The position numbers were made by a program, and so were the translations under genes. The notes below the pieces were generated by a model, which did no database searches, was not told the origin of the DNA, and worked only from the letters and a program-made list of their open reading frames with translations. From positions 1-41,572 of the IMG/VR virus record IMGVR_UViG_3300034358_000004: 41,572 nt of DNA; one strand, 5' to 3'. This stretch comes from a virus. This document shows positions 3,898 to 41,572 of this stretch, one piece after another (the stretch's first letter is position 1; each line of letters starts with the position of its first letter).

Positions 3898-3922
3898 GTA
3901 GTCTATAAGTGCCCAATTGATT
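3898..3922 (-). promoter_or_regulatory. Phage RNA polymerase promoter before the tail spike
   Basis: The minus strand reads AATCAATTGGGCACTTATA followed by GACTAC. This is one of five near-identical copies in the genome, all in the minus orientation and all intergenic or touching a stop codon. The CACTTATAG core resembles the CACTATAG of T7 and SP6 promoters. The upstream flank makes a palindrome, GTGCCCAA...TTGGGCAC (3910-3929). It would drive the spike, holin and terminase genes late. Confidence 0.85.
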
Positions 3923-14788: not shown

Positions 14789-14813
14789 GTAGTCTATAAG
14801 TGCCCAATTGATT
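14789..14813 (-). promoter_or_regulatory. Phage RNA polymerase promoter before the capsid gene
   Basis: Carries the shared core AATCAATTGGGCACTTATA followed by GACTAC, and the downstream GAACCATTT also seen at the tail-spike copy. One extra A upstream enlarges the loop of the flanking palindrome (14800-14821) compared with the 3898 copy. It lies in the 87-bp gap between scaffold and capsid, like T7 phi10. Confidence 0.87.
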
Positions 14814-18047: not shown

Positions 18048-18057
18048 AATGTTCTCC

Positions 18058-18080
18058 TAGTTATAAGTGCCCAATTGATT
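18058..18080 (-). promoter_or_regulatory. Phage promoter variant, one base shorter
   Basis: The minus strand carries AATCAATTGGGCACTTATA, then ACTAG where the other copies have GACTAC, so the G after TATA is missing. The upstream flank does not form the palindrome seen at 3898 and 14789. It overlaps the stop codon of the 77-residue gene by one base and precedes the GNAT-like gene by 11 bp. The changed start region may make it weaker. Confidence 0.75.
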
Positions 18081-18313: not shown

Positions 18314-18327
18314 AGAATTATTCCTCT

Positions 18328-18352
18328 GTAGTCTATAAGTGCCCAATTGATT
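18328..18352 (-). promoter_or_regulatory. Phage promoter at the end of the RNA polymerase gene
   Basis: The full core AATCAATTGGGCACTTATA plus GACTAC, with its first base overlapping the RNA polymerase stop codon (18354-18352). Downstream sequence is CAGAGGAATAATTCT then the ATG, so the transcript leader is very short. The first phage-polymerase transcript into the structural block would start here. Confidence 0.85.
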
Positions 18353-20760: not shown

Positions 20761-20762
20761 AC

Positions 20763-23729: not shown

Positions 23730-23950
23730 TTCGCCACCTCGCTGATCTTGACACGGGCAATGCTGTGTGCGGGGTAGATGTATGACACACCATCCACCAA
23801 CACTTCCAGCCCCAGTGCGTTGACCTTGCACTTGGCGTCCGCAAACACTGGGCCTTCGAACTCGCTGCGGAACAGTGAGTGTGGCTTGGCCAGTGCGTTG
23901 AACGCATGGGTCTGTGCAGGCTCGGTGAGGATTACTTCGATACGGCTCAT
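23726..23950 (-). CDS. Small unknown protein between endonuclease VII and phosphoesterase
   Basis: A 74-residue protein with an alternating beta-type pattern (KVNALGLEVLVDGVSYIYPA then HSIARVKISEVAK), perhaps a small SH3-like barrel. Both ends overlap neighbours by 4 bp (ATGA), so it sits within a translationally coupled run. The ribosome-binding site is AAGGTG. I recognise no family. Confidence 0.75.
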   Translation of the reverse strand: MSRIEVILTEPAQTHAFNALAKPHSLFRSEFEGPVFADAKCKVNALGLEVLVDGVSYIYPAHSIARVKISEVAK

Positions 23951-25270: not shown

Positions 25271-26154
25271 TACAGCAGACCGGCGAGCGCGTCGTCGCTG
25301 GCTACACCGCCTTCGAACGGCAGGTCAGTCACGTCACCTTCCAGACCAGCGACATCCAGCTCGCCACCGTCGCCGAGGATCGACTGCATCTTGCTACCAG
25401 TCCAGTCCAGTGCCTGCTTGATCTCTTCTTGGATCACGTTCTTGGTCTTGGCTGGTCGCGCCGGCTGGCCGTCCTTGGCTTCGACAGCTTCGTACTCGCC
25501 GTCGATGAACAGGCTGTCCCACATTTCTTTGGTGGCGTATTCCCACAGGAAGCAGCGCTGCGAGCTGATGACTTCCGGTGCGTTGATCACACGGAACTCG
25601 CCAGTAGGCATGCCTGCATCATCGACCAGATCGACACGGGCCGGGGAGATACGGAAGCCGTCTTGCGCATTGCCGATGCTGCCGTACTTGATCAGATCGC
25701 CGCCTTCTGGAGTGAACTCCTCCTGCGACACGATGACCTTGACGTGCTTGCCCAGCAGTTGAGCAGGGATCTTGACGCCCGGATCCTTGGCATGGTTCAG
25801 TGCGCTGAACAGCTTGAAGAAGCCCGACTTGTCGCTGGCCTTCTTGCCCGGCTCAGGCAGCCAAGTGTGTACGGTGATGCGCTTGGCGAACTTGGTGCCT
25901 TCCTCGTTGGCGGTGTGCGGGTTGGTGCCACCGGCCAGTTCGAAGATCCAGCGAGCGCGGCGTACCTTCTTGTCCGGCGCGCCCTTGTAGCCCTTCTTGA
26001 GTCGGCGACCCAGCTCTATGTAGCCTACCAGTGTGGCGATGCACGTACCGGCATTCGGTGGAGTAGCGCCGCCACCGCCCTTGCTTGCTTCGGACATGTC
26101 TTCCGATTCGTTGGCTGCTTGTTCGATGATGCTGTCGAGGTTGAATTGGGTCAT
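25270..26154 (-). CDS. Probable single-stranded DNA-binding protein
   Basis: A 294-residue protein between the polymerase and the exonuclease. A Gly-rich linker (EASKGGGGATPPNAG) precedes a beta-rich region with GTCIATLVGYIELGRRL, RARWIFELAGG, FAKRITVHTWLPEPG and LLGKHVKVIVSQEEF. These could form OB-fold strands. The C-terminal tail is acidic and ends in hydrophobic residues (PFEGGVASDDALAGLL), like the partner-binding tails of SSBs and T7 gp2.5. Function is inferred from this tail and position; sequence similarity to gp2.5 is not evident. The ribosome-binding site is GGAGCAATACAC. Confidence 0.65.
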   Translation of the reverse strand: MTQFNLDSIIEQAANESEDMSEASKGGGGATPPNAGTCIATLVGYIELGRRLKKGYKGAPDKKVRRARWIFELAGGTNPHTANEEGTKFAKRITVHTWLPEPGKKASDKSGFFKLFSALNHAKDPGVKIPAQLLGKHVKVIVSQEEFTPEGGDLIKYGSIGNAQDGFRISPARVDLVDDAGMPTGEFRVINAPEVISSQRCFLWEYATKEMWDSLFIDGEYEAVEAKDGQPARPAKTKNVIQEEIKQALDWTGSKMQSILGDGGELDVAGLEGDVTDLPFEGGVASDDALAGLL

Positions 26155-26375
26155 GTGTATTGCTCCATTGCTATTGAGGATTCGATTGTCACACGGTGCA
26201 GAGTCTTGATGCTACGGAGTAGCAGTCCGGTATGCTCTGCGGGCAAGTACCGGCGCTGCAAGTTCCACTCCTTGTCGTCCCATGAGTCCAGCACCCACGG
26301 CCTGTCGTTGTAGTCGCAGTGGGTCGGGACGTATCCCATCGCGGCGTCTGCTCGCCAGAGTGAGTGCAGGATCAT
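26151..26375 (-). CDS. Small unknown protein after DNA polymerase
   Basis: A 74-residue protein, Trp-rich in its first half (SLWRADAAMGYVPTH then RPWVLDSWDDKEWNLQRRYL). Its ATG overlaps the polymerase stop (TAATG) and it overlaps the next gene by 4 bp. The tight coupling supports it being real. No motif is recognised; a polymerase or ssDNA-binding accessory role would be a guess from position only. Confidence 0.7.
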   Translation of the reverse strand: MILHSLWRADAAMGYVPTHCDYNDRPWVLDSWDDKEWNLQRRYLPAEHTGLLLRSIKTLHRVTIESSIAMEQYT

Positions 26376-28741: not shown

Positions 28742-28749
28742 GGTCGCTC

Positions 28750-29319
28750 CTACTTGCGCACCCAAGTGGGCGCATGGTTCGCGTCTTCGGGGAGGTGTAC
28801 CTTGATCATCCCATGCTTCTTCATCAGGCTAATGATAGTGTTACAGTCCTCCATGCGGATGCGCTTGGCCTCCTGTTCCGCCCGCACCTCTACTGCGAAG
28901 TGATCCTCGATCACATGGTAGGCGTTCTTATTGCTGAGGCAGAGGTTGATGTCCTGTGCAGCGATGCTGCGAAACTCCAGCCTGCCGCTCACTTCACCAT
29001 TAGCGAAGTAGAAGGTGCAGCCGGAGCGGTTGCACGTAACACGATTGCTCAGCAGGTAACCGTCTGCCCCAGTGATGGTGCCCAGTGCTGTGACGATGAA
29101 CTCATTAGCCACGTTACACGCATAGTCCGCAGAGTTCTGGTTACCACACAGATACACAACCCGCTTGCCGAATGCAGCGGCCATCACCGCAGCCTTGACT
29201 GCTCGGGTGGTGCGGCCGGTGCCGCGCTTTGGATCGGAGTGTGGCCCGGCAGCAGCGCGCCGCCGGCATTCGTTGCAGTGTTTGCTGACGCAGCTAGCGC
29301 CCGTTGGTACGTCACACAT
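28750..29319 (-). CDS. P-loop-like protein with N-terminal cysteine cluster
   Basis: A 189-residue protein between helicase and polymerase. The start ATG 29319 overlaps the helicase stop and has GGGGAG 9 bases upstream. Cys2, Cys10, Cys15 and Cys18 may bind zinc. KRGTGRTTRAVKAAVMAAA (residues about 31-49) resembles a Walker A loop followed by its helix, but Arg stands where Lys is usual. FGKRVVYLCGN then forms a hydrophobic strand. The C-terminal half is helical and ends NHAPTWVRK. A nucleotide-binding replication accessory is possible; no Walker B is certain. Confidence 0.7.
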   Translation of the reverse strand: MCDVPTGASCVSKHCNECRRRAAAGPHSDPKRGTGRTTRAVKAAVMAAAFGKRVVYLCGNQNSADYACNVANEFIVTALGTITGADGYLLSNRVTCNRSGCTFYFANGEVSGRLEFRSIAAQDINLCLSNKNAYHVIEDHFAVEVRAEQEAKRIRMEDCNTIISLMKKHGMIKVHLPEDANHAPTWVRK

Positions 29320-30691
29320 CGTCGGTACTCCCCATGTTCTGCGCCTCATGGAATCGTGAGGTCGCGTAGTCAAAGAACGTCTCGGCACGCGGCGACTTGC
29401 CCATGCCCTCGATACTCAGCTTGTTCTTAGGTGTGCTGATCCACCGCGCTGCCTCCTGCGAGGCGTCCGCTTCCTTGTTACCCATCATGATGATGGCATC
29501 GCATGCACCCTGCTTGCCGGTCTTGCTATCCTTGAGCATGTGCATCAGCGGGAAGCTCAGCTCTGCTGCGTCGGCGCTGGTCTGGCTAGTGGCCAAGCCA
29601 ACGTGATCATAGATCACAGCCATGTTCCGGCCCCACGCATACATCGCTTCGAGCAGTTGGTCAGTCCGGGTGCCGCCGTTGCTCACTCCGTTGGTGAACT
29701 GGATGTTGTCGATCATGTCGTACACCACCAGCATCGGGTTGGTGTCCTTGATCAACTCCTCCACCATACTGGCTGACCAGCCGTGGATGTCCTTGACCTT
29801 GATGACGTGGCGGTTGCCACCCATCAGCACCTCGTACTCCTGCCACAGCGTGCCGGCGTTCTGCTTCTCGATGATCTGACTCATCGGGATACCGAACGCC
29901 GCCTGAACTACACGCTTGAGGATCCGTTTGCCCGGACCCTCATTGTTAAGCCAGAGGATGATTCGGGGTGCGGGCGCAGACGTTGGTACTCCAGCATCAC
30001 CAGTAGCAGAGTGTTCTTCGAACCACTGCGCATGAGCTGCTGCGTTATACGCCGCAACTTGCGGACCCATAAAGGTGATGTTGTCCGCAATAGCTGACGT
30101 CTTGCCCGAGTCAGGCCGTGCTGCAAAGATGATGAAGTCACCGCCGCGCCACGGGCGCATGTACATTTGGAGACAGGCCCAGCGCGGTTGAAGCCCTTCG
30201 TTGTTTGTGTCCTCATGAAACAGATCCTCATCGAGTTCAACGAACTCAAACTTTTTGCTGCTGCCTTCCATCGCAATGACGTAGGCATTGTAGATCAGGT
30301 TCAGTTCTACTGCCGGGTCGACATCCTCGCCGGCATGGTAGCGGTCCATGATCTCCGTGGTCTGCACAGCCAAGTCAGCCTGCAAGATCTGCTTAACGAT
30401 CTGCTTCTTGGCGAACTCGTTAGGTTCCTTGGCTGCCTGCTTGAACACAGCAGACAGGATAGCCTTGGCCTCATCGCCCAGCTTGTCGCCCTTGCTCAAG
30501 AAGAACCACGACTGGAACCCATCATCCACCGGGATGGTCAGGCAGTCAGGGTCCAGCTTGAAGAATGAATCATAGGCGTTGAGGATAGCGAAGGTGTGTG
30601 CGTCAACCGACTTAGGGTTGAGCATCCGCCGGAGCTGATAGAACTTCTTCCGCTCGCGCATGATCTGTAGCAGCGTGTGATCGAACGCCAT
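29312..30691 (-). CDS. Replicative DNA helicase (DnaB/RecA-like)
   Basis: A 459-residue hexameric-helicase-type ATPase. Walker A is ARPDSGKTSA (about residue 190) and Walker B is MLVVYDMIDN (about 317). RIILWLNNEGPGKRILKRV (about 250) has the strand and acidic residue of motif H1a. YDHVGLATSQTSADA and MHMLKDSKTGKQGACDAIIM match later DnaB-like motifs. It unwinds DNA ahead of the polymerase. In T7 primase and helicase are fused in gp4; here they are two genes overlapping by 80 bp, the phiKMV-like arrangement. Confidence 0.93.
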   Translation of the reverse strand: MAFDHTLLQIMRERKKFYQLRRMLNPKSVDAHTFAILNAYDSFFKLDPDCLTIPVDDGFQSWFFLSKGDKLGDEAKAILSAVFKQAAKEPNEFAKKQIVKQILQADLAVQTTEIMDRYHAGEDVDPAVELNLIYNAYVIAMEGSSKKFEFVELDEDLFHEDTNNEGLQPRWACLQMYMRPWRGGDFIIFAARPDSGKTSAIADNITFMGPQVAAYNAAAHAQWFEEHSATGDAGVPTSAPAPRIILWLNNEGPGKRILKRVVQAAFGIPMSQIIEKQNAGTLWQEYEVLMGGNRHVIKVKDIHGWSASMVEELIKDTNPMLVVYDMIDNIQFTNGVSNGGTRTDQLLEAMYAWGRNMAVIYDHVGLATSQTSADAAELSFPLMHMLKDSKTGKQGACDAIIMMGNKEADASQEAARWISTPKNKLSIEGMGKSPRAETFFDYATSRFHEAQNMGSTDDV

Positions 30692-31520
30692 GAATGATAC
30701 TCCTGATCTCCGCTAGGCTGTATGCCTTGGGGTCTTTGTCGGTGGTGATTCGAAGCGGCTCAAGTCCAACCAACTCAAGTTGCTTTGTGATAGAAAGGCA
30801 TGCGTCCTCTCCGGCCCTGTCCGGGTCAAACCATAAATAGATGCGGGCCGTGGTTTGCAGTAGGCGGGCAATGGTGTGTTGGGATAGAGACGTTCCCATA
30901 ACGGCATAGCCATCAGCAGTACCTGACTCTCCGACCTTAAAGGCTGAGAGTATATCTTCTGTAAGGCAGACCGCATTGCATCCCGCAGCTCCTCGATAGA
31001 GTACATGGACGCGATCTCGCGGAACTGATGCAGAGATGTACTTAGCTCCGCCTGCCTTGGGATATTCTGGATTGCGGGCCTGCCAGAAGATAGCCTTCCG
31101 CTCCGCACCGTCCCCGTATATTGGAAGGACGACCCGGCCAGTCGGCTCATGGTAGTACGCACCCAGTCGTTTGATGGCAGCGGCGTTGAGTCCTGCCTTG
31201 TAAAGCCAGAGTCTTGCAGCAGGCGTCCATGTTGTAAGATCATGGCTGGCTGGGAAAGGCGGGCGAACTTGGTATGACAGTTCATTATCAATATTCCTTT
31301 GCTGCTCTTTCCGAGCAAGTCTCTCTCTCATGTTGGGCTGTGCCTTCGGCACCCACCCACGGGAATGACAGCGCCAGCACCATGCCGACCAACTGTCTAC
31401 GTTGTGGTAGACAACAAGGCTGGCATCCCCACAGAGATGCTGGACCTTGTTCTTTGTGCCAACCGTAATGGCTTGCGCCTCGGCCAGCCACTCACTAGGG
31501 TCCATCAACTCGTCAGACAT
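30612..31520 (-). CDS. DNA primase
   Basis: A 302-residue primase that makes RNA primers for lagging-strand synthesis. The N-terminal zinc-binding part has Cys30, His39, Cys48 and Cys51 (HLCGDA...VYHN...WCWRCHSRGW). The TOPRIM part has AVCLTEDILSAFKVGE and IYLWFDPDRAGEDA, the metal-binding Glu and Asp-x-Asp. Its start has AAGAGG upstream. The 80-bp overlap with the helicase encodes a likely disordered tail (HARAEEVLSAPADAQP). It opens the replication block. Confidence 0.93.
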   Translation of the reverse strand: MSDELMDPSEWLAEAQAITVGTKNKVQHLCGDASLVVYHNVDSWSAWCWRCHSRGWVPKAQPNMRERLARKEQQRNIDNELSYQVRPPFPASHDLTTWTPAARLWLYKAGLNAAAIKRLGAYYHEPTGRVVLPIYGDGAERKAIFWQARNPEYPKAGGAKYISASVPRDRVHVLYRGAAGCNAVCLTEDILSAFKVGESGTADGYAVMGTSLSQHTIARLLQTTARIYLWFDPDRAGEDACLSITKQLELVGLEPLRITTDKDPKAYSLAEIRSIIHGVRSHAATDHARAEEVLSAPADAQP

Positions 31521-31533
31521 GCCAGCCTCTTAG

Positions 31534-31656
31534 TCAGTTACAGATGCACGGTGAGCTGCCGCAGCAGAAGCAGGCGTAGCTCACGCAGGTGCAGTGCAGC
31601 ACCTCGTCTTTTCCGCAGCGCCAGCAGGCGAACAGCGGGTTGATGTATAGCAGCAT
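31534..31656 (-). CDS. 40-residue cysteine-rich protein
   Basis: A small ORF starting at ATG 31656 with AGGGG 8 bases upstream, between the 65-residue gene and the primase. It encodes 40 residues with nine cysteines: LFACWRCGKDEVLHCTC in the first half and YACFCCGSSPCICN at the end. The first CxxC...CxC could bind zinc, and the rest could form a second site. The good ribosome-binding site, the snug fit in a gap and the unusual composition support a real gene. It is expressed with the early or middle genes. I recognise no family. Confidence 0.65.
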   Translation of the reverse strand: MLLYINPLFACWRCGKDEVLHCTCVSYACFCCGSSPCICN

Positions 31657-31665
31657 AGTGTGCCC

Positions 31666-31863
31666 CTAGTTGACGATACAGACCGCCGCGTGATTGCGGC
31701 GAGTACCCCAGCAGCTACCCTCGAAGGGTTTGTCTGCCAACTCTACAGTCTTCTTGCGCACGAACGTGACCGTGCTCAGGCGCATTGCCTGAGCTTTGCC
31801 GGCCACACAGTACGCAACGGTCTGGCCAACTGCCAGTTCCTTACCGCTGATGTCCTGTGCCAT
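31666..31863 (-). CDS. Small SH3-like unknown protein
   Basis: A 65-residue protein with a pattern common in small phage proteins: DISGKELAVGQTVAYCVAG, then RLSTVTFVRKKTVELAD. This suggests five short strands, perhaps a KOW/SH3-like barrel. ATG 31863 has GAGG 7 bases upstream. It lies 8 bp after the preceding gene. The function is unknown. Confidence 0.75.
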   Translation of the reverse strand: MAQDISGKELAVGQTVAYCVAGKAQAMRLSTVTFVRKKTVELADKPFEGSCWGTRRNHAAVCIVN

Positions 31864-31871
31864 GAGGAACC

Positions 31872-32264
31872 TCAGCCGTTCAACTGGGTCAGGAGTTCAT
31901 CGGCTTCGCTAATGCCGACAGCAGCTTCACCAAGTGCAACGGCGACAGCGCTTGGCTCATCCTTGGCCGGCTCAGTGATGCCAGTCAGTTGGCTGACGGC
32001 CACGGTGTAGACTTCCAGATCAAAGCCTTCACCGACTTCAACGCGCACGCTGTCAACATCCTTGACCAGACCACGGCCACGCACAACGCCGGTAACTTCG
32101 CGGCGGGTTTCGGCACGGCCAATCTTGAAGCTGGCGCCGAAGCCTGCGGCTACGGAGTCGAACAGTGCTGCTGCTTGCGATGCCTTGATCAGCTCAGCCA
32201 GCTTGTTCTGTGCTGCAACAACAACGGCTTCTTGTTTGGCGATAGCTTCTGCGAACTTAGACAT
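31872..32264 (-). CDS. Early/middle protein with coiled-coil N-terminus
   Basis: A 130-residue protein. Residues 1-38 form a likely helix or coiled coil (MSKFAEAIAKQEAVVVAAQN then KLAELIKASQ). Residues about 45-95 are beta-rich (KIGRAETRREVTGVVRGRGL). The C-terminus is acidic (GISEADELLTQLNG). It has the strong ribosome-binding site CAGGAGATACACC, nearly identical to that of the capsid gene, so it is probably made in large amount. I do not recognise its function. Confidence 0.8.
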   Translation of the reverse strand: MSKFAEAIAKQEAVVVAAQNKLAELIKASQAAALFDSVAAGFGASFKIGRAETRREVTGVVRGRGLVKDVDSVRVEVGEGFDLEVYTVAVSQLTGITEPAKDEPSAVAVALGEAAVGISEADELLTQLNG

Positions 32265-32276
32265 GGTGTATCTCCT
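32265..32276 (-). promoter_or_regulatory. Strong conserved ribosome-binding site of an early gene
   Basis: AGGAGATACACC lies directly before ATG 32264. This matches the capsid site at 14746-14757 base for base over 12 positions. High translation of the 130-residue protein is expected. Confidence 0.65.
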
Positions 32277-32308
32277 GAGTAATAGTTAGTGGGCTAAGTG
32301 GTGCCCGC

Positions 32309-32365
32309 CATGCACACTAGTCGCCTCGTGTCCGTCAATGGTATCTGGTTGAACGAGTGTGCATG
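32309..32365. repeat. Inverted repeat with 10-bp arms in an early intergenic gap
   Basis: Arms at 32309-32318 (CATGCACACT) and 32356-32365 (AGTGTGCATG) are perfect complements separated by 37 bases. The pair occupies the 107-bp gap between the 93-residue and 130-residue genes. In RNA it would make a stem upstream of the strong ribosome-binding site. It may be an RNase III-type processing site or an operator. Confidence 0.5.
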
Positions 32366-32371
32366 ACGAAC

Positions 32372-32653
32372 TTACTTGCTGACTACGTGGTCGAGCGAGG
32401 TGCGTAGGCTAGTGGCCAGACGCTCGTTCTCGTTGATCTTGTCGCTGCCGATGATGCTGTTAGCGCTGGCGGTTGCAGCTCGGGAAGCCAAGGCAGTTGC
32501 CCGTGCATGGGCACGGTCGGATGCTGCGCGGAGCACCTTCTCCTTGGCAGCCTGCTTCTTCTTGAACTGCTTCTGCTTCTCGGCCTGCTTCAATGCCTCG
32601 CGGTGAGCGATCAGGTGAGCCAGTGCCAGCAGTGTGCGGATGAACTTGAACAT
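32372..32653 (-). CDS. Small basic helical protein
   Basis: A 93-residue protein, strongly basic and helical. The first 15 residues are hydrophobic (MFKFIRTLLALAHLIAH). A long Lys/Gln/Ala helix follows (REALKQAEKQKQFKKKQAAK), then a polar C-terminus (GSDKINENERLATSLRTSLD). The ribosome-binding site is GGAGATACACC, the strong type. It could bind membrane by the N-terminus or nucleic acid by the basic helix. I recognise no family. Confidence 0.7.
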   Translation of the reverse strand: MFKFIRTLLALAHLIAHREALKQAEKQKQFKKKQAAKEKVLRAASDRAHARATALASRAATASANSIIGSDKINENERLATSLRTSLDHVVSK

Positions 32654-32693
32654 GGTGTATCTCCATAGCGTGGTTGGTTAGTAGGGCGGAACA

Positions 32694-32722
32694 GTGAGTG
32701 CGTGCCAGTGCATCGCACTCAC
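32694..32722. repeat. Inverted repeat with 9-bp arms in an early intergenic gap
   Basis: GTGAGTGCG (32694-32702) and CGCACTCAC (32714-32722) are perfect complements around an 11-base loop. They lie in the 156-bp gap between the winged-helix gene and the basic helical gene. No U-tract follows on either strand, so RNA processing or an operator is more likely than termination. The rest of the gap shows no ORF I can support. Confidence 0.5.
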
Positions 32723-32809
32723 AGTAGGATGACCGGCACTCGATGGCAGTCACGCGGTCCGGGTCAGTGGACGCAGAACATACTACACCACCGACCAAGA
32801 CCGGCAGGC

Positions 32810-33313
32810 TCACAGCAGGGTGATCTGTGCGCGGGGCTTCTCCGGCGGCGTGACCTGTGCCACCAGACCGATGACTGTGCATGGTTGGCCAGTGCGCAGC
32901 GACAGTTCTTCCGCAGCCAACAACGCCTGCTTCTTGGTGCCGGTGCCGTCGATCTGGAAGTTGGAGACTACTGCGAACTTGGTGATGCGGGACACCTTGG
33001 TTTCGCCTGCCTCATGCATGGCCTGCAACACAGCCAGCTCCTCGTCGGTGACGTACACCAGCGTGTGGTCTGGTCGGTTGGCGAACAACTGCATGCCAAC
33101 GTCTGTGATACCCCACGGTGCATAGGCGCGGTTGCCTTTCTCCATCGAGTACACCAGACCCAGCTTGCGCATAGCGCACAGTACATGCGCGGCACCTTGC
33201 GGGTCAGTGCCTACCACGTTGGCCAGCCGGTCGGTGAGCATGTAGCTGGCCCCGGCATTGGCCAGTGCAGCCAGCAGGGAACGTTGTTGTGCAGGGAGAG
33301 TAGAGAATTTCAT
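32810..33313 (-). CDS. Winged-helix DNA-binding protein
   Basis: A 167-residue protein. Residues about 8-70 have a winged-helix pattern: QRSLLAALANAGASYMLTD, then NVVGTDPQGAAHVLCAMRKL as the recognition helix region and LVYSMEKGNRAYAPWGIT as the wing. A second segment (DEELAVLQAMHEAGETKVS) may be another helical unit. The C-terminal part has TGTGTKKQALLAAEEL. It may regulate phage or host promoters early in infection. The ATG overlaps the upstream stop (ATGA) and its ribosome-binding site AAGGA lies within the last codons of that gene. Confidence 0.65.
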   Translation of the reverse strand: MKFSTLPAQQRSLLAALANAGASYMLTDRLANVVGTDPQGAAHVLCAMRKLGLVYSMEKGNRAYAPWGITDVGMQLFANRPDHTLVYVTDEELAVLQAMHEAGETKVSRITKFAVVSNFQIDGTGTKKQALLAAEELSLRTGQPCTVIGLVAQVTPPEKPRAQITLL

Positions 33314-33510
33314 GGGCGGTATTCCTTAAAGGTGTCGCCGGCTGCGCCGGGGCGGATGGTGCGGGGCTTGCGGTATGCTTTGCGACGTTCTTTGTCGCGG
33401 CCCTCACGTTCGAGAATCAGGGCACGCACCTCGGAGGTGACGCCATTGGTGAGAGACAGGTCGCCGCCCATCTGGACGAAGCCCCCGTTGAAGGTGCGTG
33501 CTAATGACAT
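33310..33510 (-). CDS. Small basic unknown protein ending in KEYRP
   Basis: A 66-residue protein from ATG 33510 (MSLARTFNGG) to the stop overlapping the next gene. The C-terminal half is very basic (EREGRDKERRKAYRKPRTIR). It ends TFKEYRP; the unrelated 138-residue protein at 36911 ends TFTKEYRK. In both cases these codons carry the AAGGA ribosome-binding site of the following gene. A DNA- or RNA-binding role is possible from charge alone. Confidence 0.65.
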   Translation of the reverse strand: MSLARTFNGGFVQMGGDLSLTNGVTSEVRALILEREGRDKERRKAYRKPRTIRPGAAGDTFKEYRP

Positions 33511-33514
33511 GGTG

Positions 33515-33763
33515 TTATCCAGCGAAGTAGAAGTTGATGCCCGCGCCGAGTGCCGGCACCAGCAGGTGAGTAGCCACGATGTCCGCAGCCACGGAGAAGA
33601 AGGTGAAGACGCCGGCAGCAAAGGCTAGACGCCCGGCAGGGATGAGCTTCTTACGATTGCGCCGGCACTTGCTCGCCAGAATATCGAAGGCGAGGAGCAC
33701 GCCGATCATGGCCAGCCAGAGGATGAGCATGCCTACCGCTGCCTGTAACAGAAGGATACCCAT
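33515..33763 (-). CDS. Small two-helix membrane protein
   Basis: An 82-residue protein whose ATG overlaps the upstream stop (TGATG), with AAGGGGAG just before. Two hydrophobic segments flank a basic loop: residues about 2-27 (including AAVGMLILWLAMIGVLLAFD) and about 46-72 (AFAAGVFTFFSVAADIVATH). The loop SKCRRNRKKL would lie in the cytoplasm, giving both ends outside. Small early membrane proteins in phages often act in host takeover or exclusion; no family was recognised. Confidence 0.7.
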   Translation of the reverse strand: MGILLLQAAVGMLILWLAMIGVLLAFDILASKCRRNRKKLIPAGRLAFAAGVFTFFSVAADIVATHLLVPALGAGINFYFAG

Positions 33764-34011
33764 CACTTGCTCCCCTTCGCAATGTGTAGGACATCAGATG
33801 CCTCGACGTACTGCTGGTCGATCATCTCCCGAGAGCCCAGCTTGACGGGGAATGGGAACCGGCACGGCCCCTCTACCAGCAGATCGTCGTTGAACTTGCT
33901 GATGTTCAGGATCTTTACCAGCGCACCAAACTTTACGTTGTGGTAGTCGCTGCATGCAACACGGATCGACTGACCTACCTTGAGGTCGGACTGCTTAGGC
34001 TTGCGGGACAT
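33763..34011 (-). CDS. Small beta-rich unknown protein
   Basis: An 82-residue protein. Start ATG 34011 has AAGGAG 8 bases upstream, and it overlaps the GNAT-like gene by 17 bp; a longer frame to 34083 lacks such a site. The pattern LKVGQSIRVACSDYHNVKFG and LLVEGPCRFPFPVKL suggests a small SH3/KOW-like barrel. Function is unknown. Confidence 0.7.
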   Translation of the reverse strand: MSRKPKQSDLKVGQSIRVACSDYHNVKFGALVKILNISKFNDDLLVEGPCRFPFPVKLGSREMIDQQYVEASDVLHIAKGSK

Positions 34012-34504
34012 GTTGAATCTCCTTACGCATGAAGACGACATCAGGTCGCCCTTTGGTGTGGTTCGGTTCGCGCAGTACCTCACGGAATCCGTGGCGCTGG
34101 TACAGTGCTATGAGGTGTGGGATGTCGAAGGTGTCCAGACGATTAGCGCCAAGGGCTACAGCCTCACGCATCATCCAGTCACCGCAGCCGGGCTTCACGT
34201 TGTGCAGTCCCAGCAGCTCACCGGACAGTACAACGAGCCCACCGTCTGCGCGGTTGCCTTCCTTGCACAGCCGGATATGGCAGTGGTGTTTGTTGAACCA
34301 CTCGATGATTGCATTCTGCTGCTGTCTGGTGCGTGGTCCAGATGCAGGGCGTACCTTGGCCAGACGGTGAAACTCTTGCGAGCACTTCAACGTCACAGCA
34401 CTGGCCTCATGGCAGCCCTCGCGGATCCGCTGCCGCCGCCCTGCATTGGTGGCCAGTGCGTAGTAGAACGCATCCGGCTCAGCTTTCACTATTACTTGTG
34501 GCAT
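33995..34504 (-). CDS. GNAT-like acetyltransferase
   Basis: A 169-residue early protein with a GNAT pattern. Beta strands around LVVLSGELLGLHNVKPG are followed by GCGDWMMREAVALGANRLDT (helix and strand of motif A/B). DIPHLIALYQRHGFREVLR is the C-terminal LYxxxGF block, which is clear. The usual acetyl-CoA loop (Q/R-x-x-G-x-G/A) is weak, so activity is uncertain. Early phage acetyltransferases can modify host proteins; the target here is unknown. No ribosome-binding site better than GAGG at 11 bases is seen. Confidence 0.65.
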   Translation of the reverse strand: MPQVIVKAEPDAFYYALATNAGRRQRIREGCHEASAVTLKCSQEFHRLAKVRPASGPRTRQQQNAIIEWFNKHHCHIRLCKEGNRADGGLVVLSGELLGLHNVKPGCGDWMMREAVALGANRLDTFDIPHLIALYQRHGFREVLREPNHTKGRPDVVFMRKEIQHVPQA

Positions 34505-34663
34505 TGCTAGTACCTCGGTTGGTTAAGCGTCTGCCCCTCGTTAGAAGGGCAGCTACTAAATCTCCCGGTGTTGTTCTGGCGTGCATATAGGCAGGCCAGT
34601 AGTTTGCCCTCCGGCTAACCCTAACCTTCGCACTGTCTTGCTGTGATGGTTGGGCATTAGCAA
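34505..34663. other. 159-bp intergenic gap with hairpin
   Basis: The gap between the 79-residue gene and the GNAT-like gene holds a hairpin at 34531-34552 (CTGCCCCT-CGTTAG-AAGGGCAG, 7 of 8 pairs). It has no U-tract, so processing or stabilisation is likelier than termination. A 33-codon ORF (34657-34556) begins 7 bp after the previous stop. Its ribosome-binding site is weak and I do not call it a gene. Confidence 0.5.
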
Positions 34664-34903
34664 TCAACCCCGCAGATGGATGTCACGTGCCGCCCAATAG
34701 CTCACGCCTTCCGGCGAGAGGCCCCACGAGAATGCTCCGCTGAGGCGTGGGCCGCCGCCGAAGTTGTGGTCGCCATACTTGCGCTTCCAGTTGTGGTGAT
34801 AGTGCTTGGCGCGGATGGTGTCGTTCAGTACGGCGCGGCGCAGCTGCTTGCCGATCAGCCCTTTGCCCTCATGAAACTCAGCGATCTGCTGTGCATAGAT
34901 CAT
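34664..34903 (-). CDS. Small basic unknown protein
   Basis: A 79-residue protein from ATG 34903 (MIYAQQIAEF), which overlaps the upstream stop (ATGA) and has AGGAG 8 bases before it. It is rich in His, Trp and Tyr: RAKHYHHNWKRKYGDHNFGG and SWGLSPEGVSYWAARD. This is an unusual aromatic composition for so short a protein. I recognise no family. Confidence 0.7.
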   Translation of the reverse strand: MIYAQQIAEFHEGKGLIGKQLRRAVLNDTIRAKHYHHNWKRKYGDHNFGGGPRLSGAFSWGLSPEGVSYWAARDIHLRG

Positions 34904-35088
34904 CGTGCTTCTCCTGTGCACCAACGCTCGGCGGTGCCATAGGCATCGTTCTGGCAGTTGGTATGGTAGTCAGCGGCCGGGTTGCCTTCGAACGTCACCA
35001 GATACTCACGGGTATCTGGCAGACGGTAGACGGTGGCGACCTTGCCGCTGGTTTTGTGTGTGCGTGTTGCCAGTTTGCGACGGCTCAT
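34900..35088 (-). CDS. Small unknown protein
   Basis: A 62-residue protein. ATG 35088 shares its A with the upstream TAA (TAATG), and the stop overlaps the next start (ATGA). The N-terminus is basic (MSRRKLATRTHKTSGKVA), followed by a beta-like stretch (ATVYRLPDTREYLVTFEGN) and a polar end with two cysteines. The strict coupling on both sides supports it as real. No function is recognised. Confidence 0.7.
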   Translation of the reverse strand: MSRRKLATRTHKTSGKVATVYRLPDTREYLVTFEGNPAADYHTNCQNDAYGTAERWCTGEAR

Positions 35089-35294
35089 TAGTAAACAACC
35101 CCTTGAGTAGTGAGCGGCGGCATCGCATCAGACGCCAGAAAGTAGGCAGTGAATCGGTTGAGGTGCCGCCGGGCGTCCTCGGCGTGCAGGGCGTTGAACT
35201 CCGCAGGGCATCGCCGCATCAGGTACATCGACTGTGCCACCTGTGTGCGGGCCTCGGCCATCTTGCGCTGAGCAATTGCGCGGTGCTTGCTCAT
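35088..35294 (-). CDS. Small helical unknown protein
   Basis: A 68-residue protein. ATG 35294 (MSKHRAIAQRKM) overlaps the lipoprotein stop as ATGA; an ATG 6 bp upstream is the less likely start. It is basic and mostly helical (EARTQVAQSMYLMRRCPAEF, then DARRHLNRFTAYFLASD). No family is recognised. Confidence 0.68.
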   Translation of the reverse strand: MSKHRAIAQRKMAEARTQVAQSMYLMRRCPAEFNALHAEDARRHLNRFTAYFLASDAMPPLTTQGVVY

Positions 35295-35497
35295 TGGCAT
35301 TCATCCGCAGCCGGGGCGAACTGGCAGTCGAACACGGCCACGTCAGGCAGCGGTGCCTCGATGTAGTTGGCCGGGTTGACGCTGGCGTCGAAGTTAACGC
35401 CGTCCAGATACACCACGTTGACAGAGCATCCGCCCAATGCGGACAGGGCCACGGCGGTGAACAGGACGATAGCTACTACCTTGATAAGCTGGTTCAT
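35291..35497 (-). CDS. Small early lipoprotein
   Basis: A 68-residue protein with a textbook lipoprotein signal: MNQLIK, a hydrophobic core (VVAIVLFTAVALSALGG) and the lipid-accepting Cys24. Ser follows at +2, so outer-membrane sorting is expected. The mature part is about 45 residues, acidic, with two further cysteines (FDCQFAPAADECQ) that could form a disulfide. ATG 35497 has GAGGAATTCAA upstream. Early phage lipoproteins such as T5 Llp block the phage receptor and exclude superinfecting phage; that role is possible here but unproven. Confidence 0.75.
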   Translation of the reverse strand: MNQLIKVVAIVLFTAVALSALGGCSVNVVYLDGVNFDASVNPANYIEAPLPDVAVFDCQFAPAADECQ

Positions 35498-35530
35498 TTG
35501 AATTCCTCGGGTGGCTCGGGCCGTTTTCTA

Positions 35531-35561
35531 AGCGGCGCCTAAATTGGGTCTGGAGTGGACG
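35531..35561 (-). promoter_or_regulatory. Repeated 31-bp intergenic element, copy 2
   Basis: The minus strand holds CGTCCACTCCAGACCCAATT and then TAGGCGCCGCT. It matches the element at 37331-37362 with few changes. It lies between an early gene stop (35568) and the lipoprotein ribosome-binding site. The CACTCCAGAC part faintly resembles the CACTATAG of T7-type promoters. The role is unknown. Confidence 0.55.
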
Positions 35562-35567
35562 GTATCG

Positions 35568-35837
35568 CTAGGGCCAAGTGCTGTGCTGTAGCGGCAACTC
35601 GTCGATGAAGTACAGGGCGCAGTAGTATGCACCCTTTGGCTGGGAGAATCCTACGGTGTTCTCCTCCGTGTAGCGCTGCACTGGTACACACACCTGTCGG
35701 CCATCCAGTACGCGCTTCTTGGCCTCCTCTCGGGTGAGCCATGCCGTCTCGGACAGTAGCTTAGGCAAACCCCTGCCGAGCATGCGCGGCACCACGATCC
35801 GGGTAATGACTGTGCACTTGACCTTGCATACGACCAT
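35568..35837 (-). CDS. Small unknown protein
   Basis: An 89-residue protein from ATG 35837, with AAGGG 8 bases upstream inside the 4-bp neighbourhood of the previous stop. It contains TAWLTREEAKKRVLDGRQV (helical) and strand-like FSQPKGAYYCALYFIDELPL. The N-terminus is basic (MVVCKVKCTVITRIVVPR). No family is recognised. It ends shortly before the repeated 31-bp element. Confidence 0.68.
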   Translation of the reverse strand: MVVCKVKCTVITRIVVPRMLGRGLPKLLSETAWLTREEAKKRVLDGRQVCVPVQRYTEENTVGFSQPKGAYYCALYFIDELPLQHSTWP

Positions 35838-35838
35838 G

Positions 35839-36192
35839 TCACTTACCCTTTATGTTATCCAGCATGTACTTGACCAGCGCCGTGCGTTGCTCTCGCTGCG
35901 CACCCTCCCACAAAGGCAGACGGCAGCCGCTGCCATCGAATTCCCGTGCAATGGGATACGTCGAGGTGTCGTCTGCCGCATCGCGGGTGATTACATCCAG
36001 CTTGCCGGTACGTGCCGGCCACTTGGCACCGTAGCGAGCCACCACACTGTAGACGTCGAGATAACTCCCGGCCTGCTCGAATCGCTGGTTGAGGTTATAG
36101 CAGATGCCCATAGTATCGTCACTCGGCCCGTCCTTAGACAGTTGAACAAGAGCGCGGCGTAGGTTACGGCGTTGCAGTTGAGTCAGTTTCAT
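35839..36192 (-). CDS. Unknown early protein
   Basis: A 117-residue protein if it starts at ATG 36192 (MKLTQLQRRNLRRALVQL); the frame is open from a GTG at 36234 (131 residues). Neither start has a strong ribosome-binding site, so the N-terminus is uncertain. The N-terminal helix is basic. A middle SYLDVYSVVARYGAKWPART and a C-terminal EFDGSGCRLPLWEGAQREQR look folded. No family is recognised. Confidence 0.68.
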   Translation of the reverse strand: MKLTQLQRRNLRRALVQLSKDGPSDDTMGICYNLNQRFEQAGSYLDVYSVVARYGAKWPARTGKLDVITRDAADDTSTYPIAREFDGSGCRLPLWEGAQREQRTALVKYMLDNIKGK

Positions 36193-36258
36193 TGTTGCAC
36201 CATTCAGGTTAGTGAACACAGTAGATAGCCGCACCTACGTCGGCTATCTCTTTGCACA

Positions 36259-36345
36259 CTAGCTCATGCAGTCAGCTATGAGGAGGCACACGGCGCTGAT
36301 AGCGAAGCATGTCACGCTAATGCGGAACCATGCCTCGGCACTCAT
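36259..36345 (-). CDS. 28-residue membrane peptide
   Basis: A tiny ORF whose ATG overlaps the stop of the 190-residue gene (ATGA). It encodes MSAEAWFRISVTCFAISAVC followed by LLIADCMS, essentially one membrane-spanning helix with three cysteines. It fills a gap of about 150 bp that otherwise has no gene. Translational coupling and a clear hydrophobic helix support it; its small size keeps confidence low. Confidence 0.45.
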   Translation of the reverse strand: MSAEAWFRISVTCFAISAVCLLIADCMS

Positions 36346-36914
36346 GCTGCCAGTACCTCAGCCATCGGGTCGTTTACGGCCGGCGCAGCTACCATGTCCG
36401 GGCCAGTCGATTCGACCAGTGCCTGTACCTTGGCCAGCAAGTCGGCGCCGATCACCTTGGTAGGATCAGTGGCGTTCTTCTTGGCAGCCTTGCTCAGCAG
36501 TGCAGCCAGCAGCTTATGGAAGTCAAAGTCTTCGTCCAACTTCTCCGGCTTGCAGTCGAACCAAGGCTCGTCACACGCACCTTGCAGGTTAGTGGTCGCG
36601 GCCTTGTCAAACAGGAAGGGCTGAGCCTTCTTGGTAGCTTCGTCAATGTTCAGCTTCACCTTGCCGTACTTCACCAGCCACTCGACCATTGCTGCCTTGC
36701 GGTGGCCCTTGGACAGTGCGCCGAACAGCTCGTTGACCAGCGAGGTAGCTACAGTGACGTCGCCGTGTGTGTCGATATGGGACATGACCGACAGGCCCGC
36801 CACTTGGATACGGCCATCCAGTTTCTTACCGGCTGCTGCAATGCTGGTGAATTCCTTGCGCAGTGCATCAGTGCCGATGATCAGGGTAGGGATTGTGTTT
36901 GCTTTAGTAGTCAT
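36342..36914 (-). CDS. Conserved-type early phage protein of unknown function
   Basis: A 190-residue protein coupled to the upstream gene (ATGA), with AAGGAATACCGC as ribosome-binding region. Typical segments are GTDALRKEFTSIAAAGKKLD, VAGLSVMSHIDTHGDVTVAT and GHRKAAMVEWLVKYGKVKLN. I have the impression that this layout (a GxDAL start and a HxDxHGDVT middle) recurs in other T7-like and larger phages, but the function is not known. The C-terminal part is Ala-rich and polar. Confidence 0.8.
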   Translation of the reverse strand: MTTKANTIPTLIIGTDALRKEFTSIAAAGKKLDGRIQVAGLSVMSHIDTHGDVTVATSLVNELFGALSKGHRKAAMVEWLVKYGKVKLNIDEATKKAQPFLFDKAATTNLQGACDEPWFDCKPEKLDEDFDFHKLLAALLSKAAKKNATDPTKVIGADLLAKVQALVESTGPDMVAAPAVNDPMAEVLAA

Positions 36915-37327
36915 TTGCGGTATTCCTTAGTGAAGGTGGCACCGTGTGCCTTGAGTTTGGATTTGTTTGCGACTAGTTCCACGTCACACTTGCCGACAGC
37001 TCGGCGACCGCCAGTCTTTGGCCGGCCCTTGCTATCTTCTTGCCATGCATCTACCGGGCCTTGAGGATCAGTCGCCAGTTCCCAGTCGTTAAGCTGACGG
37101 CGCCGCTTGCCAGCTTGTGTGTTGCCCTTGTGCCACATGTCAGTCAGCTTGATACGGATACCCATATCCTTTACTGCCTGCTGATACAGATGGTCAATGT
37201 CCAGTGGACGCTGAGCTATCTGTATCGGCGATGCTGCGGAGTGTCTGATAACACCCTCGATCATGGTGCCGCAACGCCGGATCTTAGCCCGAGCCTTGCG
37301 CATCTGCTTCTTCTCAAGTGCATTCAT
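36911..37327 (-). CDS. Basic early protein
   Basis: A 138-residue, strongly basic protein. It opens MNALEKKQMRKARAKIRRCG and has KGNTQAGKRRRQLNDWELAT in the middle and a Lys-rich end (NKSKLKAHGATFTKEYRK). Nucleic-acid binding is plausible from the charge. It lies just downstream of the repeated 32-bp element and has no clear ribosome-binding site. Its last codons contain the AAGGA used by the next gene. No family is recognised. Confidence 0.7.
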   Translation of the reverse strand: MNALEKKQMRKARAKIRRCGTMIEGVIRHSAASPIQIAQRPLDIDHLYQQAVKDMGIRIKLTDMWHKGNTQAGKRRRQLNDWELATDPQGPVDAWQEDSKGRPKTGGRRAVGKCDVELVANKSKLKAHGATFTKEYRK

Positions 37328-37330
37328 TCT

Positions 37331-37362
37331 AGCGGCGCCTATATATGGGTCTAGAGTGGACG
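37331..37362 (-). promoter_or_regulatory. Repeated 32-bp intergenic element, copy 1
   Basis: The minus strand reads CGTCCACTCTAGACCCATAT and then ATAGGCGCCGCT. It differs from the 35531-35561 copy by a few substitutions and one indel. The TAG inside it is the stop of the 50-residue gene. Conservation of a non-coding string at two early gene boundaries suggests a control site such as a weak promoter, a processing site or a protein-binding site. Confidence 0.55.
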
Positions 37363-37503
37363 CACTTCGCCAGCCAGAAGATCCAGCGAGCGGTCAGTGT
37401 AGATCAGAGCCTTAGTCTTTGCTACCAGTGCCGGCTTGCCAGTGTTGCGCTTAGCTATGCGGTGAAAGGTAGCGGCCATGATGCGATAATGATTGGAGTT
37501 CAT
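37351..37503 (-). CDS. First early gene, 50-residue basic protein
   Basis: The first ORF downstream of the early promoters. ATG 37503 has GAGGG 8 bases upstream, directly after the long stem at 37516-37611. It encodes MNSNHYRIMAATFHRIAKRN, then TGKPALVAKTKALIYTDRSL and DLLAGEVRPL. The position is equivalent to T7 gene 0.3, the first gene to act on the host, but the sequence does not resemble the acidic DNA mimic Ocr; it is basic. Function is unknown. Confidence 0.6.
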   Translation of the reverse strand: MNSNHYRIMAATFHRIAKRNTGKPALVAKTKALIYTDRSLDLLAGEVRPL

Positions 37504-37994
37504 AGTGATGCCCTCGGTAGTTTCTTATACACACTCGGAGCCAGTAGGCCTAACCTTCCTGCCGTACCTCAGTCAAGAGTGCCATCGCAGTAGTGTGTAT
37601 AAGGAACCACCGAAGTGTATTCCTGCTAGCATCTGTCCGCCTAGCCACGTTGATAGGTCCAATCCTATCGTTGCCCATTTCGTCAGGGTACACACGTCAG
37701 TTGTTCGTGTTGCCTTGGTTCGGCGCTAGCCTCCCCTCACGCTTTCCCGTCTTACAGCATATGGCTGCGGGCTGAGAGCGTAGTACTATTCATGTACCAA
37801 TGACCGGTCGAGTGACGTGTCCGGCGTGCCAGTTACTCATTGTCCCTTAGAGTGCTTAGCGCAATCCACCACCTAGTCACCAGTCCAGCATGCTAGGCGC
37901 TTCCTGTCTTACCTAAGCCTTACCTCACCAGTGTCGGAGAGCCAAGCCTTGTGCAACTAAAGAGCGGTGAATCTTTGTAACCTTGTTGCCGTGC
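37504..37994 (-). other. Early mRNA leader, about 490 nt without a supported gene
   Basis: Sequence between the most downstream host-type promoter and the first early gene. It holds the 20-bp inverted repeat at 37516-37611 and otherwise no clear ORF. A 42-codon frame (37678-37550) has no ribosome-binding site and a 16-codon frame near 37840 is too short to call. A leader of several hundred bases with a processing hairpin also occurs between the T7 A promoters and gene 0.3. Confidence 0.7.
37516..37611 (-). promoter_or_regulatory. Long stem-loop before the first gene, RNase III-type site
   Basis: On the minus strand GGTGGTTCCTTATACACACT (37611-37592) pairs with AGTGTGTATAAGAAACTACC (37535-37516). 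This gives 18 Watson-Crick pairs, one G-U pair and one mismatch around a 56-base loop. The 3' arm ends one base before the ribosome-binding site of the first early gene. Place and shape fit the RNase III site R0.3 of T7. As DNA, the same arms also carry TGTGTATAAG pointing outward on both strands. Confidence 0.65.
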
Positions 37995-38023
37995 ATCTTA
38001 CGCCAGTAGCTGATGCTTGTCAA
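37995..38023 (-). promoter_or_regulatory. Host sigma70-type early promoter (third, A3-like)
   Basis: Minus strand -35 TTGACA (38023-38018), 17-bp spacer, -10 TAAGAT (38000-37995). The -35 is perfect. It is the nearest of three evenly spaced promoters to the early genes. Confidence 0.8.
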
Positions 38024-38114
38024 CCCGTGTATTATTGCGAGCGTTCTAAGCGTGACCACTGTGCAACCTACTATGAAGATTCGGTTACGGTACATCGTGT
38101 TGCTGTGCTGCGTA

Positions 38115-38143
38115 TTCTACATCGTTGCTGCTAGGCTGTCAAC
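38115..38143 (-). promoter_or_regulatory. Host sigma70-type early promoter (second, A2-like)
   Basis: Minus strand -35 TTGACA (38143-38138), 17-bp spacer, -10 TAGAAT (38120-38115), which is five of six consensus bases. It lies 120 bp upstream of the third promoter. AAGGG precedes the -35 here and at 38275. Confidence 0.85.
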
Positions 38144-38246
38144 CCTTGAAACCTTTGAGCCGTTAAGCCTTCCCAGTTCCAAACCCTATGCCGTGGCGAC
38201 CACTAGTAGCATCTGGTGTTGCGCTTGCCGTGTTGCTAGGTTGCGA

Positions 38247-38275
38247 ACTCTACAGACCTAGTTGCTATCTGTCAA
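38247..38275 (-). promoter_or_regulatory. Host sigma70-type early promoter (first, A1-like)
   Basis: Minus strand -35 TTGACA (38275-38270), 17-bp spacer, -10 TAGAGT (38252-38247). It lies 132 bp upstream of the second promoter. The set of three mirrors the T7 A1, A2 and A3 promoters, which are also about 125 bp apart. Confidence 0.8.
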
Positions 38276-38492
38276 CCCTTTGTTGCTTGATCCTTTGAGC
38301 GGGATCAGCTGCCTGTGTGTAACACAGTCTAGCGGTAGGTTACTGTCTATCCGCATCAGTTGGTAGTCTGTCTCTACCTGCTAGACCGTGTTGCCTGTCT
38401 AGGTGGCCTACTCTACAGGATCTATTCTCTGTGTCTACCTGTTATTTCATACAGTGGTTATCTAGTCTTCATCTATATGCATGTCGTATGCG

Positions 38493-38520
38493 AGTATCAT
38501 ACTCTGAATCTCTCTGTCAA
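38493..38520 (-). promoter_or_regulatory. Possible fourth host-type promoter
   Basis: Minus strand TTGACA (38520-38515), 16-bp spacer, GATACT (38498-38493). The -35 is perfect but the -10 and spacing are less good, and it breaks the even spacing of the other three. It lies in a purine-rich stretch of the minus strand. Confidence 0.4.
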
Positions 38521-38643
38521 TCTGTCTGTCTGTCTCTGTGCTGGTCTGGATTCTCTCTGTCTCCTCCTCCCTATTGACATGGTGTGTGCTGGTGTGGTGG
38601 CCGGTAGACAGATCAAGCCCGCCCGAACCCCAACAAATGGTTG

Positions 38644-38668
38644 GTAGTCTATAAGTGCCCAATTGATT
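38644..38668 (-). promoter_or_regulatory. Phage promoter at the genome control end (phiOL-like)
   Basis: Full core AATCAATTGGGCACTTATA plus GACTAC. It stands upstream of the host-type promoters rather than before a structural gene. T7 phiOL holds the same place near the left end, where it helps DNA entry and replication start. It would let the phage polymerase re-transcribe the early region. Confidence 0.85.
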
Positions 38669-40770: not shown

Positions 40771-41571
40771 TTAGCGGCGACGGAGCACCGATTTGCTGTT
40801 GCGGGAAGTGTTGGGACGGTCGTAACGTTTCTTGTTGAACGGGTCTTTCATCTTCTCAGCCAGTACAGCAGCACGGGCCTCGGCCTCTCGCTTGGAACTG
40901 TCTTGGTTGAGCTGCTTGATCCAGAAGCCAACGGAGCCGGCCAGTGCATCGAGCCTGTCATCATGTATCAGGCACTTAGGATCACGGGTGATCTTGGCGA
41001 TCTGCTGCATGAGGCAGTAGGTTTGTCGCTTGTCCATCGGGTGACGCTGAGTGGACTCCCAGTCAGCAAGGATAAACGCCTCGTCGAAGACGAGCGAGCC
41101 CCGGCCCATGATAGGCTCGAGAGTGTCGATGATGCGCTGTTCCTTGTTGCTGGATTCGAACGTCTCGTTGATGCCCCCGGCCCAGCCGACTGCGGTGAGA
41201 TACGGCATGAACACCTTGGTGAAGGCGCCGAAGCCGAAGTTCTTCTCGATGTCGATGATGTCGGGGTTCCAACGCTTGACGATTTGCGCCAGCTCCTTGA
41301 GGTCTTTGTCCTCAAAGCCGCCGGGCACACCACCAACCTGCCGAGCGAACACGGTGCCGTTCAGGGATTCGGTCACGGCGTAGCCGGTTTCATCCCCGTT
41401 CTTACCGCCGCCTGCCGGGTCAATCCGCATGTGCCGGAGCGTAGGCTCTGCCACGTCCTGAGACACGTACTGCGGCGCCGTCATCTGGAACTTGAGGCTA
41501 CCGGCAGTGTAGTCACGAACGTGGTCGTGAGACATGCCACGGACTATGTTCAGCGGGAGCTTATCGCCCAG
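40771..41571 (-). CDS. terL: Terminase large subunit, C-terminal part (split by contig end)
   Basis: This is the nuclease half of the packaging motor, which cuts concatemeric DNA. The last 224 residues of the joined protein lie at 41445-40771; bases 41446-41571 repeat the coding sequence also found at 1-126. Acidic residues typical of the RNase H-like terminase nuclease are visible in RIDPAGGGKNGDETGYAV, IIDIEKNFGFG and HDDRLDALAGS. The tail is basic (ending SVLRRR), as is common in T7-like terminases. The ORF appears to begin at an internal Met (MSHDHVRD, 41535), but that is only because the contig is cut here. It is followed 13 bp later by the 102-residue gene. Confidence 0.95.
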   Translation of the reverse strand: MGDKLPLNIVRGMSHDHVRDYTAGSLKFQMTAPQYVSQDVAEPTLRHMRIDPAGGGKNGDETGYAVTESLNGTVFARQVGGVPGGFEDKDLKELAQIVKRWNPDIIDIEKNFGFGAFTKVFMPYLTAVGWAGGINETFESSNKEQRIIDTLEPIMGRGSLVFDEAFILADWESTQRHPMDKRQTYCLMQQIAKITRDPKCLIHDDRLDALAGSVGFWIKQLNQDSSKREAEARAAVLAEKMKDPFNKKRYDRPNTSRNSKSVLRRR

Positions 41572-41572
41572 C
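41446..41572. repeat. Assembly overlap, right copy
   Basis: This is the exact second copy of bases 1-127. Removing it and joining base 41445 to base 1 restores a single uninterrupted 585-residue large terminase. The length, 127, is a common largest k-mer size in de Bruijn assemblers, which fits an artefact of circular assembly rather than a biological repeat. Confidence 0.95.

Follow-up and report, generated by a model that had tools for sequence, protein, structure and literature searches.

Phages of the phiKMV/VSW-3 type carry the gene for their RNA polymerase (RNAP) in the middle of the genome, which obliges the host polymerase to transcribe through a long run of phage DNA. The early control end described here raises the question of how it gets that far.

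The window, the whole 41,572-bp stretch of DNA that we analysed, is from an autographivirus near Pseudomonas phage VSW-3, with its genes directed along the minus strand. The two ends share a 127-bp direct repeat (1-127 and 41446-41572) inside the large terminase gene. The contig is therefore circularly closed and was opened within that gene. The best match to the control region is VSW-3 (84%), and VSW-3-like promoters are present 3' of the RNAP gene and between genes, as expected of a Napahaivirus-like phage. The early control end studied here belongs to a Pseudomonas autographivirus of the VSW-3 type (Napahaivirus-like). Features are listed in Table 1. The second early protein is 88% identical between the window and VSW-3, and a search of bacterial genomes found no relatives of it.

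The first-pass annotation had the host polymerase crossing about 19 kb to reach the RNAP gene. The distance is indeed long, but the figure needs correction: from the last host promoter it is 17.2 kb to the RNAP start codon and 19.6 kb to the end of the gene. The gene does not lie in the early region, unlike that of T7, which is near the promoters. The minus strand between 37.5 and 18 kb held a single terminator-like site, a weak one, and no more promoter-like matches than expected by chance. With no strong promoter and one weak terminator-like site before the RNAP gene, transcripts must run the full 17.2 kb. Terminator-like sites within 18000-37510 numbered nine on the non-transcribed (plus) strand and one on the transcribed (minus) strand.

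Table 1. Features of the window and of related phages (window coordinates unless an accession or record label is given).
Feature	Position	Strand	Basis or remark
Phage RNAP promoter ATCAATTGGGCACTTATAGACTAC, control-end copy	38644..38668	-	exact copy at 38664
Fourth host promoter, weakened, TAGACA-N16-TAGAGT, then AGGCCACCTAGA	38410..38437	-	
Host sigma70-type promoter TTGACA-N17-TAGAGT	38247..38275	-	pattern match
Host sigma70-type promoter TTGACA-N17-TAGAAT	38114..38142	-	pattern match
Host sigma70-type promoter TTGACA-N17-TAAGAT, last of array	37995..38023	-	pattern match
Conserved structured leader RNA, ~480 nt, ahead of gene 1	37504..37988	-	14-phage alignment, covariation
boxA-like element CGCTCTTTAGT	37956..37966	-	~21 nt into transcript of last promoter (predicted start)
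Leader core, most conserved: GACGTGTGTACCC..GGGC, hairpin, GGCTAGGCGGACAGATGCTAGCAGG	37622..37698	-	many invariant columns; helices 4-7
Covarying hairpin GATAGG-AUUGGA-CCTATC	37652..37669	-	helix 6 of consensus structure
Terminal stem, 5' arm (RNase-III-type site)	37592..37615	-	fold, arm pairing
Terminal stem, 3' arm, with gene 1 Shine-Dalgarno GAGG (37515-37512)	37512..37535	-	arm pairing
First early ORF (gene 1), 50 aa	37351..37503	-	ATG 8 nt after GAGG
Second early gene, 138 aa	36911..37327	-	kept in relatives (phrog_24696)
Single-subunit phage RNAP, 814 aa	18352..20796	-	phrog_414, E 5e-265; Pfam RNA_pol
Phage promoter directly 3' of RNAP gene	18328..18351	-	exact ATCAATTGGGCACTTATAGACTAC
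Variant (fifth) phage promoter TATAACTAG	18060..18079	-	~250 bp past promoter behind RNAP gene
Phage promoter 5' of major capsid gene	14789..14812	-	exact ATCAATTGGGCACTTATAGACTAC
Phage promoter 5' of tail fibre gene	3898..3921	-	exact ATCAATTGGGCACTTATAGACTAC
Large terminase, C-terminal part	40771-41535		
Small terminase	1080-1385		
~50-nt loop insert, GCTAG/CTAGC hairpin	L011 about 2550-2615; L021 about 2310-2365		
LKA1 shared 5' core part (GCGATAGAACGGCGTGAGTACCC..)	L024 1380-1462		divergent afterwards
Strict boxA in other genomes	NC_001604 812; NC_003298 780; NC_004665 727; NC_004831 655 and 925; NC_009936 935; NC_015264 38965		

Phage and host promoters of the control end

The 24-base sequence ATCAATTGGGCACTTATAGACTAC occurs exactly four times in the window, at 38664 (the first A of AATTGGGC), 18348, 14809 and 3918. 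A fifth site, at 18076, is a variant with TATAACTAG in place of TATAGACTAC. The VSW-3 RNAP paper (PMC9624206) gives the promoter of that enzyme in vitro as TTAATTGGGCCACCTATA, with predicted copies 3' of the RNAP gene, in two more intergenic places and 5' of the control region. The VSW-3 promoter corresponds to the window sequence in both position and sequence. The single phage promoter previously annotated at the control end is thus present, is of the VSW-3 type, and is one of the four exact copies. Because the assembly is circular, the contig does not fix the packaging ends and the label phiOL for this copy is unproven; it could be phiOL, phiOR or a promoter internal to the terminal repeat. 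A search for the terminal repeat by similarity to the repeats of GM22, phiKMV and LKA1 gave no useful match.

We found that the three annotated TTGACA-N17 host promoters are the only matches to TTGACA-N16..18-TAnnnT on either strand of the whole window. The 1582-bp control region contains these three sites compared to a mean of 0.005 in shuffled sequences; no shuffle had more than one match, and none of 3000 reached three. Tandem strong host promoters stand ahead of gene 1, as in a T7-type control end.

The spacings of the array are 133 and 119 bp, close to the 132 and 120 bp of the first-pass annotation but not identical to them, and the start-to-start distances in T7 are 128 and 124 bp. All relatives examined that have this stretch in their record contain arrays of the same kind, with 3-6 promoters spaced 69-298 bp apart (88, 153, 80 and 82 in VSW-3). 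Since both number and spacing vary among relatives, we rejected them as meaningful homology to T7. The near-identical spacing that had been read as a shared layout is coincidental.

The first-pass annotation did not include a fourth, weakened host promoter upstream of the array, the boxA-like site, or the conservation of the whole leader. In VSW-3, UViG34156 and UViG34126 the same AGGCCACCTAGA block that follows the fourth site lies behind TTGACA-N16-TAGRGT/TAGGAT promoters. The fourth site is therefore apparently a decayed or weak homologue of these.

A conserved leader RNA ahead of gene 1

We aligned the leaders of 14 phages (alignment A2); nhmmer and pair counting sufficed for the comparison. 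The consensus structure has 53 predicted pairs, 24 of them with two-sided compensatory changes. Overall, 95.7% of cells were paired, and none of 500 shuffles reached these values. Structures slid along the alignment gave 3-7 two-sided pairs, a control that somewhat favours the structure because the structure came from the same alignment; we therefore tested the terminal stem separately.

The terminal stem lies directly 5' of gene 1 and has 23 bp (MFE -54 kcal/mol, z -4.7). It covaries heavily across relatives, which bears out the long RNA stem annotated ahead of the first gene. For the separate test, the arms were located by flanking motifs, independently of the alignment-derived structure. 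Cognate arms had 11.7 of 12 positions paired, compared to 8.1 of 12 for arms taken from different phages, and none of 20,000 permutations matched the cognate value. A conserved C.A mismatch breaks the stem. At the base of the stem, GAGG (or its equivalent), usually 8 nt 5' of the ATG, is fully or partly paired in 13 of 15 phages. As in T7-type control ends, an RNase-III-type stem, here with compensatory changes, is found between the promoters and gene 1; its cleavage is predicted.

Upstream of the stem is the most conserved part of the leader, the core. In MKPT02 and UViG36944 the loop of the GCTAG/CTAGC hairpin of the core contains an extra ~50-nt insert, and the hairpin is intact. LKA1 keeps the 5' part of the core only (E 1.3e-7). 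We found no minus-strand ORF of at least 50 aa within 37504-37924 of the leader. A covariance-model search against Rfam gave no match at E values up to 1, and a known RNA family was rejected on this ground. We also set aside a decoy for RsmA/CsrA acting through GGA loops, as the hairpin loop has a sequence other than GGA in some phages.

The leader of VSW-3 is ~78-84% identical to that of the window over the matched parts. VSW-3 also has the same phage promoter type and sites, the promoter-array zone and the boxA-like site; its promoters differ from those of the window in number and spacing. The available text of the VSW-3 RNAP paper (PMC9624206) makes no mention of the leader, nor did we find an earlier description in the literature searched, which was largely open-access. 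A promoter layout of this kind is known, and the conserved leader RNA that begins with a boxA-like site is a new variation on it. The leader is a new structured-RNA candidate, and its covariation is strong.

The boxA-like element

The T7-like order that had been annotated (phage promoter, host promoters, RNase-III-type stem, first gene) holds, and it extends to a boxA-like site. The order in T7 is phiOL, A1-A3, boxA, R0.3 and the first gene, and the window has the same order with the boxA-like site in the place of boxA. Approximately thirty bases past the last -10 box, at 37966-37956, the transcript reads CGCUCUUUAGU. This is where a boxA would be expected: in the early transcript, just past a promoter and on the sense strand. 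YGCTCTTTA occurs once in the window, with 0.29 occurrences expected on both strands.

In the rrn boxA, CGCTCTTTA forms the 5' part. Like the window, rrn leaders have this part just past strong promoters, followed by structured RNA and an RNase-III-type stem. They differ from it in the last boxA positions, and the unit downstream in the window is an mRNA. The gamma-proteobacterial boxA consensus is GYTCTTTAANA (PMC5725501), and the window contains no strict match to it. In the boxA-like site of the window (GCTCTTTAGTTG / GCTCTTTAGTT), the 8-base 5' part is exact and two fixed 3' positions depart from the consensus. Because of these two positions we claim functional analogy to boxA and not membership.

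Eleven of the 16 leaders in the comparison retain the boxA-like site at the corresponding position (those of the window, VSW-3, UViG34156, UViG34126, UViG42013, phiNV3, UViG34358, phi-2, phiGM22-3, UViG36944 and L180). L180 is a distant phage, recovered by a pattern search running from promoter to boxA. Its leader keeps the boxA-like site and the terminal stem while the middle has been replaced, and the leader model matches its 3' end only. This region (L180 2427-2938; IMGVR_UViG_3300042125_000006) is a natural module swap. SeaP4 and MKPT02 do not have the boxA-like site and instead carry the full CGCTCTTTAACAA further up; phiNV3 carries both. In Bertil, Misse and Drael01 the leader is present, with neither form of boxA recognisable.

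We did not find boxA in phiKMV, LUZ19, LKD16 or kF77, in which the RNAP gene is also in mid-genome. Like the window, the first three have TTGACA-type promoters (four to five of them) and, immediately upstream of the first genes, a stem of matching type (GGTTTGTCCCTTGA..TCAAGARACARACC). In contrast to the stem, the rest of the leader had no detected match in them. Its absence from these four phages and from Bertil, Misse and Drael01 indicates that boxA is not indispensable. Folding predictions gave the boxA-like site no greater single-strandedness than elsewhere in the leader. Among IMG/VR stretches, TTGACA is followed by CGCTCTTTAGT in 37 and by the longer strict boxA in at least 120, so the CGCTCTTTAGT variant is not established as a general signal.

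We also searched 24 whole autographivirus genomes for strict GYTCTTTAANA. There were 10 matches in nine genomes: T7, T3, gh-1, SP6 (twice), LKA1, phiNV3, SeaP4, MKPT02 and PF7A. Each of the ten lies in sense orientation within the leader zone, close to early host promoters. With the reversed pattern as a control, the same genomes yielded no forward matches and two reverse ones. The T7 boxA is a full CGCTCTTTAACAA, in contrast to the imperfect site of the window. The T7 leader is also short (boxA at 812, gene 0.3 at 925) and has no such conserved core, compared to ~480 nt in the window. In T7 the early promoters are followed by the boxA anti-termination element, and mutations in it make Gp2 dispensable, according to PMC3709561, which cites Savalia et al. 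2010.

Possible roles of the leader

On balance, we favour the notion that the leader is a device for Nus-type antitermination and RNase III processing that keeps the host polymerase going for the 17.2 kb to the RNAP gene, and we judge this somewhat more probable than not. Transcription by the host polymerase would start from the strong sigma70 promoters arranged in tandem. Within the transcript's initial ~20-100 nt, the boxA-like signal would recruit NusB/S10 together with the remaining Nus factors, on the model of rrn operons and T7, and these would render the elongation complex Rho-resistant. The resistant polymerase could then read the long early and middle region as far as the RNAP gene. 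The ~400 nt of folded RNA behind boxA might stabilize the antitermination complex, as boxB or boxC do elsewhere. RNase III would cut the terminal stem, as at R0.3 in T7, and so free the Shine-Dalgarno sequence of gene 1, which is otherwise paired in the stem. The promoters, the boxA-like site and its conservation, the compensated structure, the Shine-Dalgarno sequence in the stem and the lack of strong promoters and terminators before the RNAP gene are features of the sequence as analysed; from them we infer Nus binding, Rho resistance and cutting by RNase III. The core is possibly a partner of the Nus complex, a direct effector of RNAP, or something else.

Our results might also indicate that the leader is purely post-transcriptional, with an RNase III site and sequestration of the Shine-Dalgarno sequence that regulate gene 1 and mRNA stability. 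The likeness to boxA would then reflect conservation of a segment of another helix, and the RNAP gene would be reached by ordinary translation-coupled elongation. This reading fits the pairing of the Shine-Dalgarno sequence and the location of the strongest covariation in the terminal stem. It also fits phiKMV, LUZ19 and LKD16, which keep a stem of the same type before gene 1 without a boxA, and a boxA-like site that is not predicted to be single-stranded. However, it leaves unexplained why CGCTCTTTAGT stays fixed where flanks and middle change (UViG34126, L180), why relatives without CGCTCTTTAGT can bear a strict boxA (SeaP4, MKPT02), and why the strict boxA is confined to the sense strand and the leader across the family. 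We consider it somewhat unlikely.

It is quite improbable, in our estimate, that the folded core is a protein-independent antiterminator acting directly on host RNAP, like the put RNA of HK022, with boxA dispensable. Consistent with such a role, the core is compact, lies immediately upstream of the early genes, is highly conserved (many invariant bases, covarying helices) and is found in phages without boxA (Bertil, Drael01). However, it lies 250-350 nt downstream of the promoters, and neither the 5' part alone in LKA1 nor the match at the 3' end alone in L180 is as expected of it. An ordinary T7-type layout of promoters and stem only, literally homologous to A1-A2-A3 and R0.3, would account for the T7 order and the similar 133/119 spacing. 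Given that promoter number and spacing vary freely among relatives (3-6 sites, 69-298 bp), and that the sequence from promoters to stem is conserved RNA and not filler, we regard this as very improbable.

The antitermination and processing reading can be put in a fuller form, which we hold tentatively and at somewhat less than even chance. An undescribed family of ~400-nt leader RNAs in Pseudomonas autographiviruses, together with a degenerate boxA, would make the host polymerase processive and Rho-resistant for the 17 kb to the RNAP gene. Removal by RNase III would follow, turning on translation of gene 1.

The VSW-3 polymerase is in use for RNA synthesis, and the control logic of its phage is of practical interest. 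The boxA-like signal and folded RNA at the start of the early transcript are a concrete, testable candidate for how host transcription is sustained over a long range. The strict boxA in early leaders across subfamilies suggests that Nus-type antitermination is a common trait of the family and not a detail of T7.
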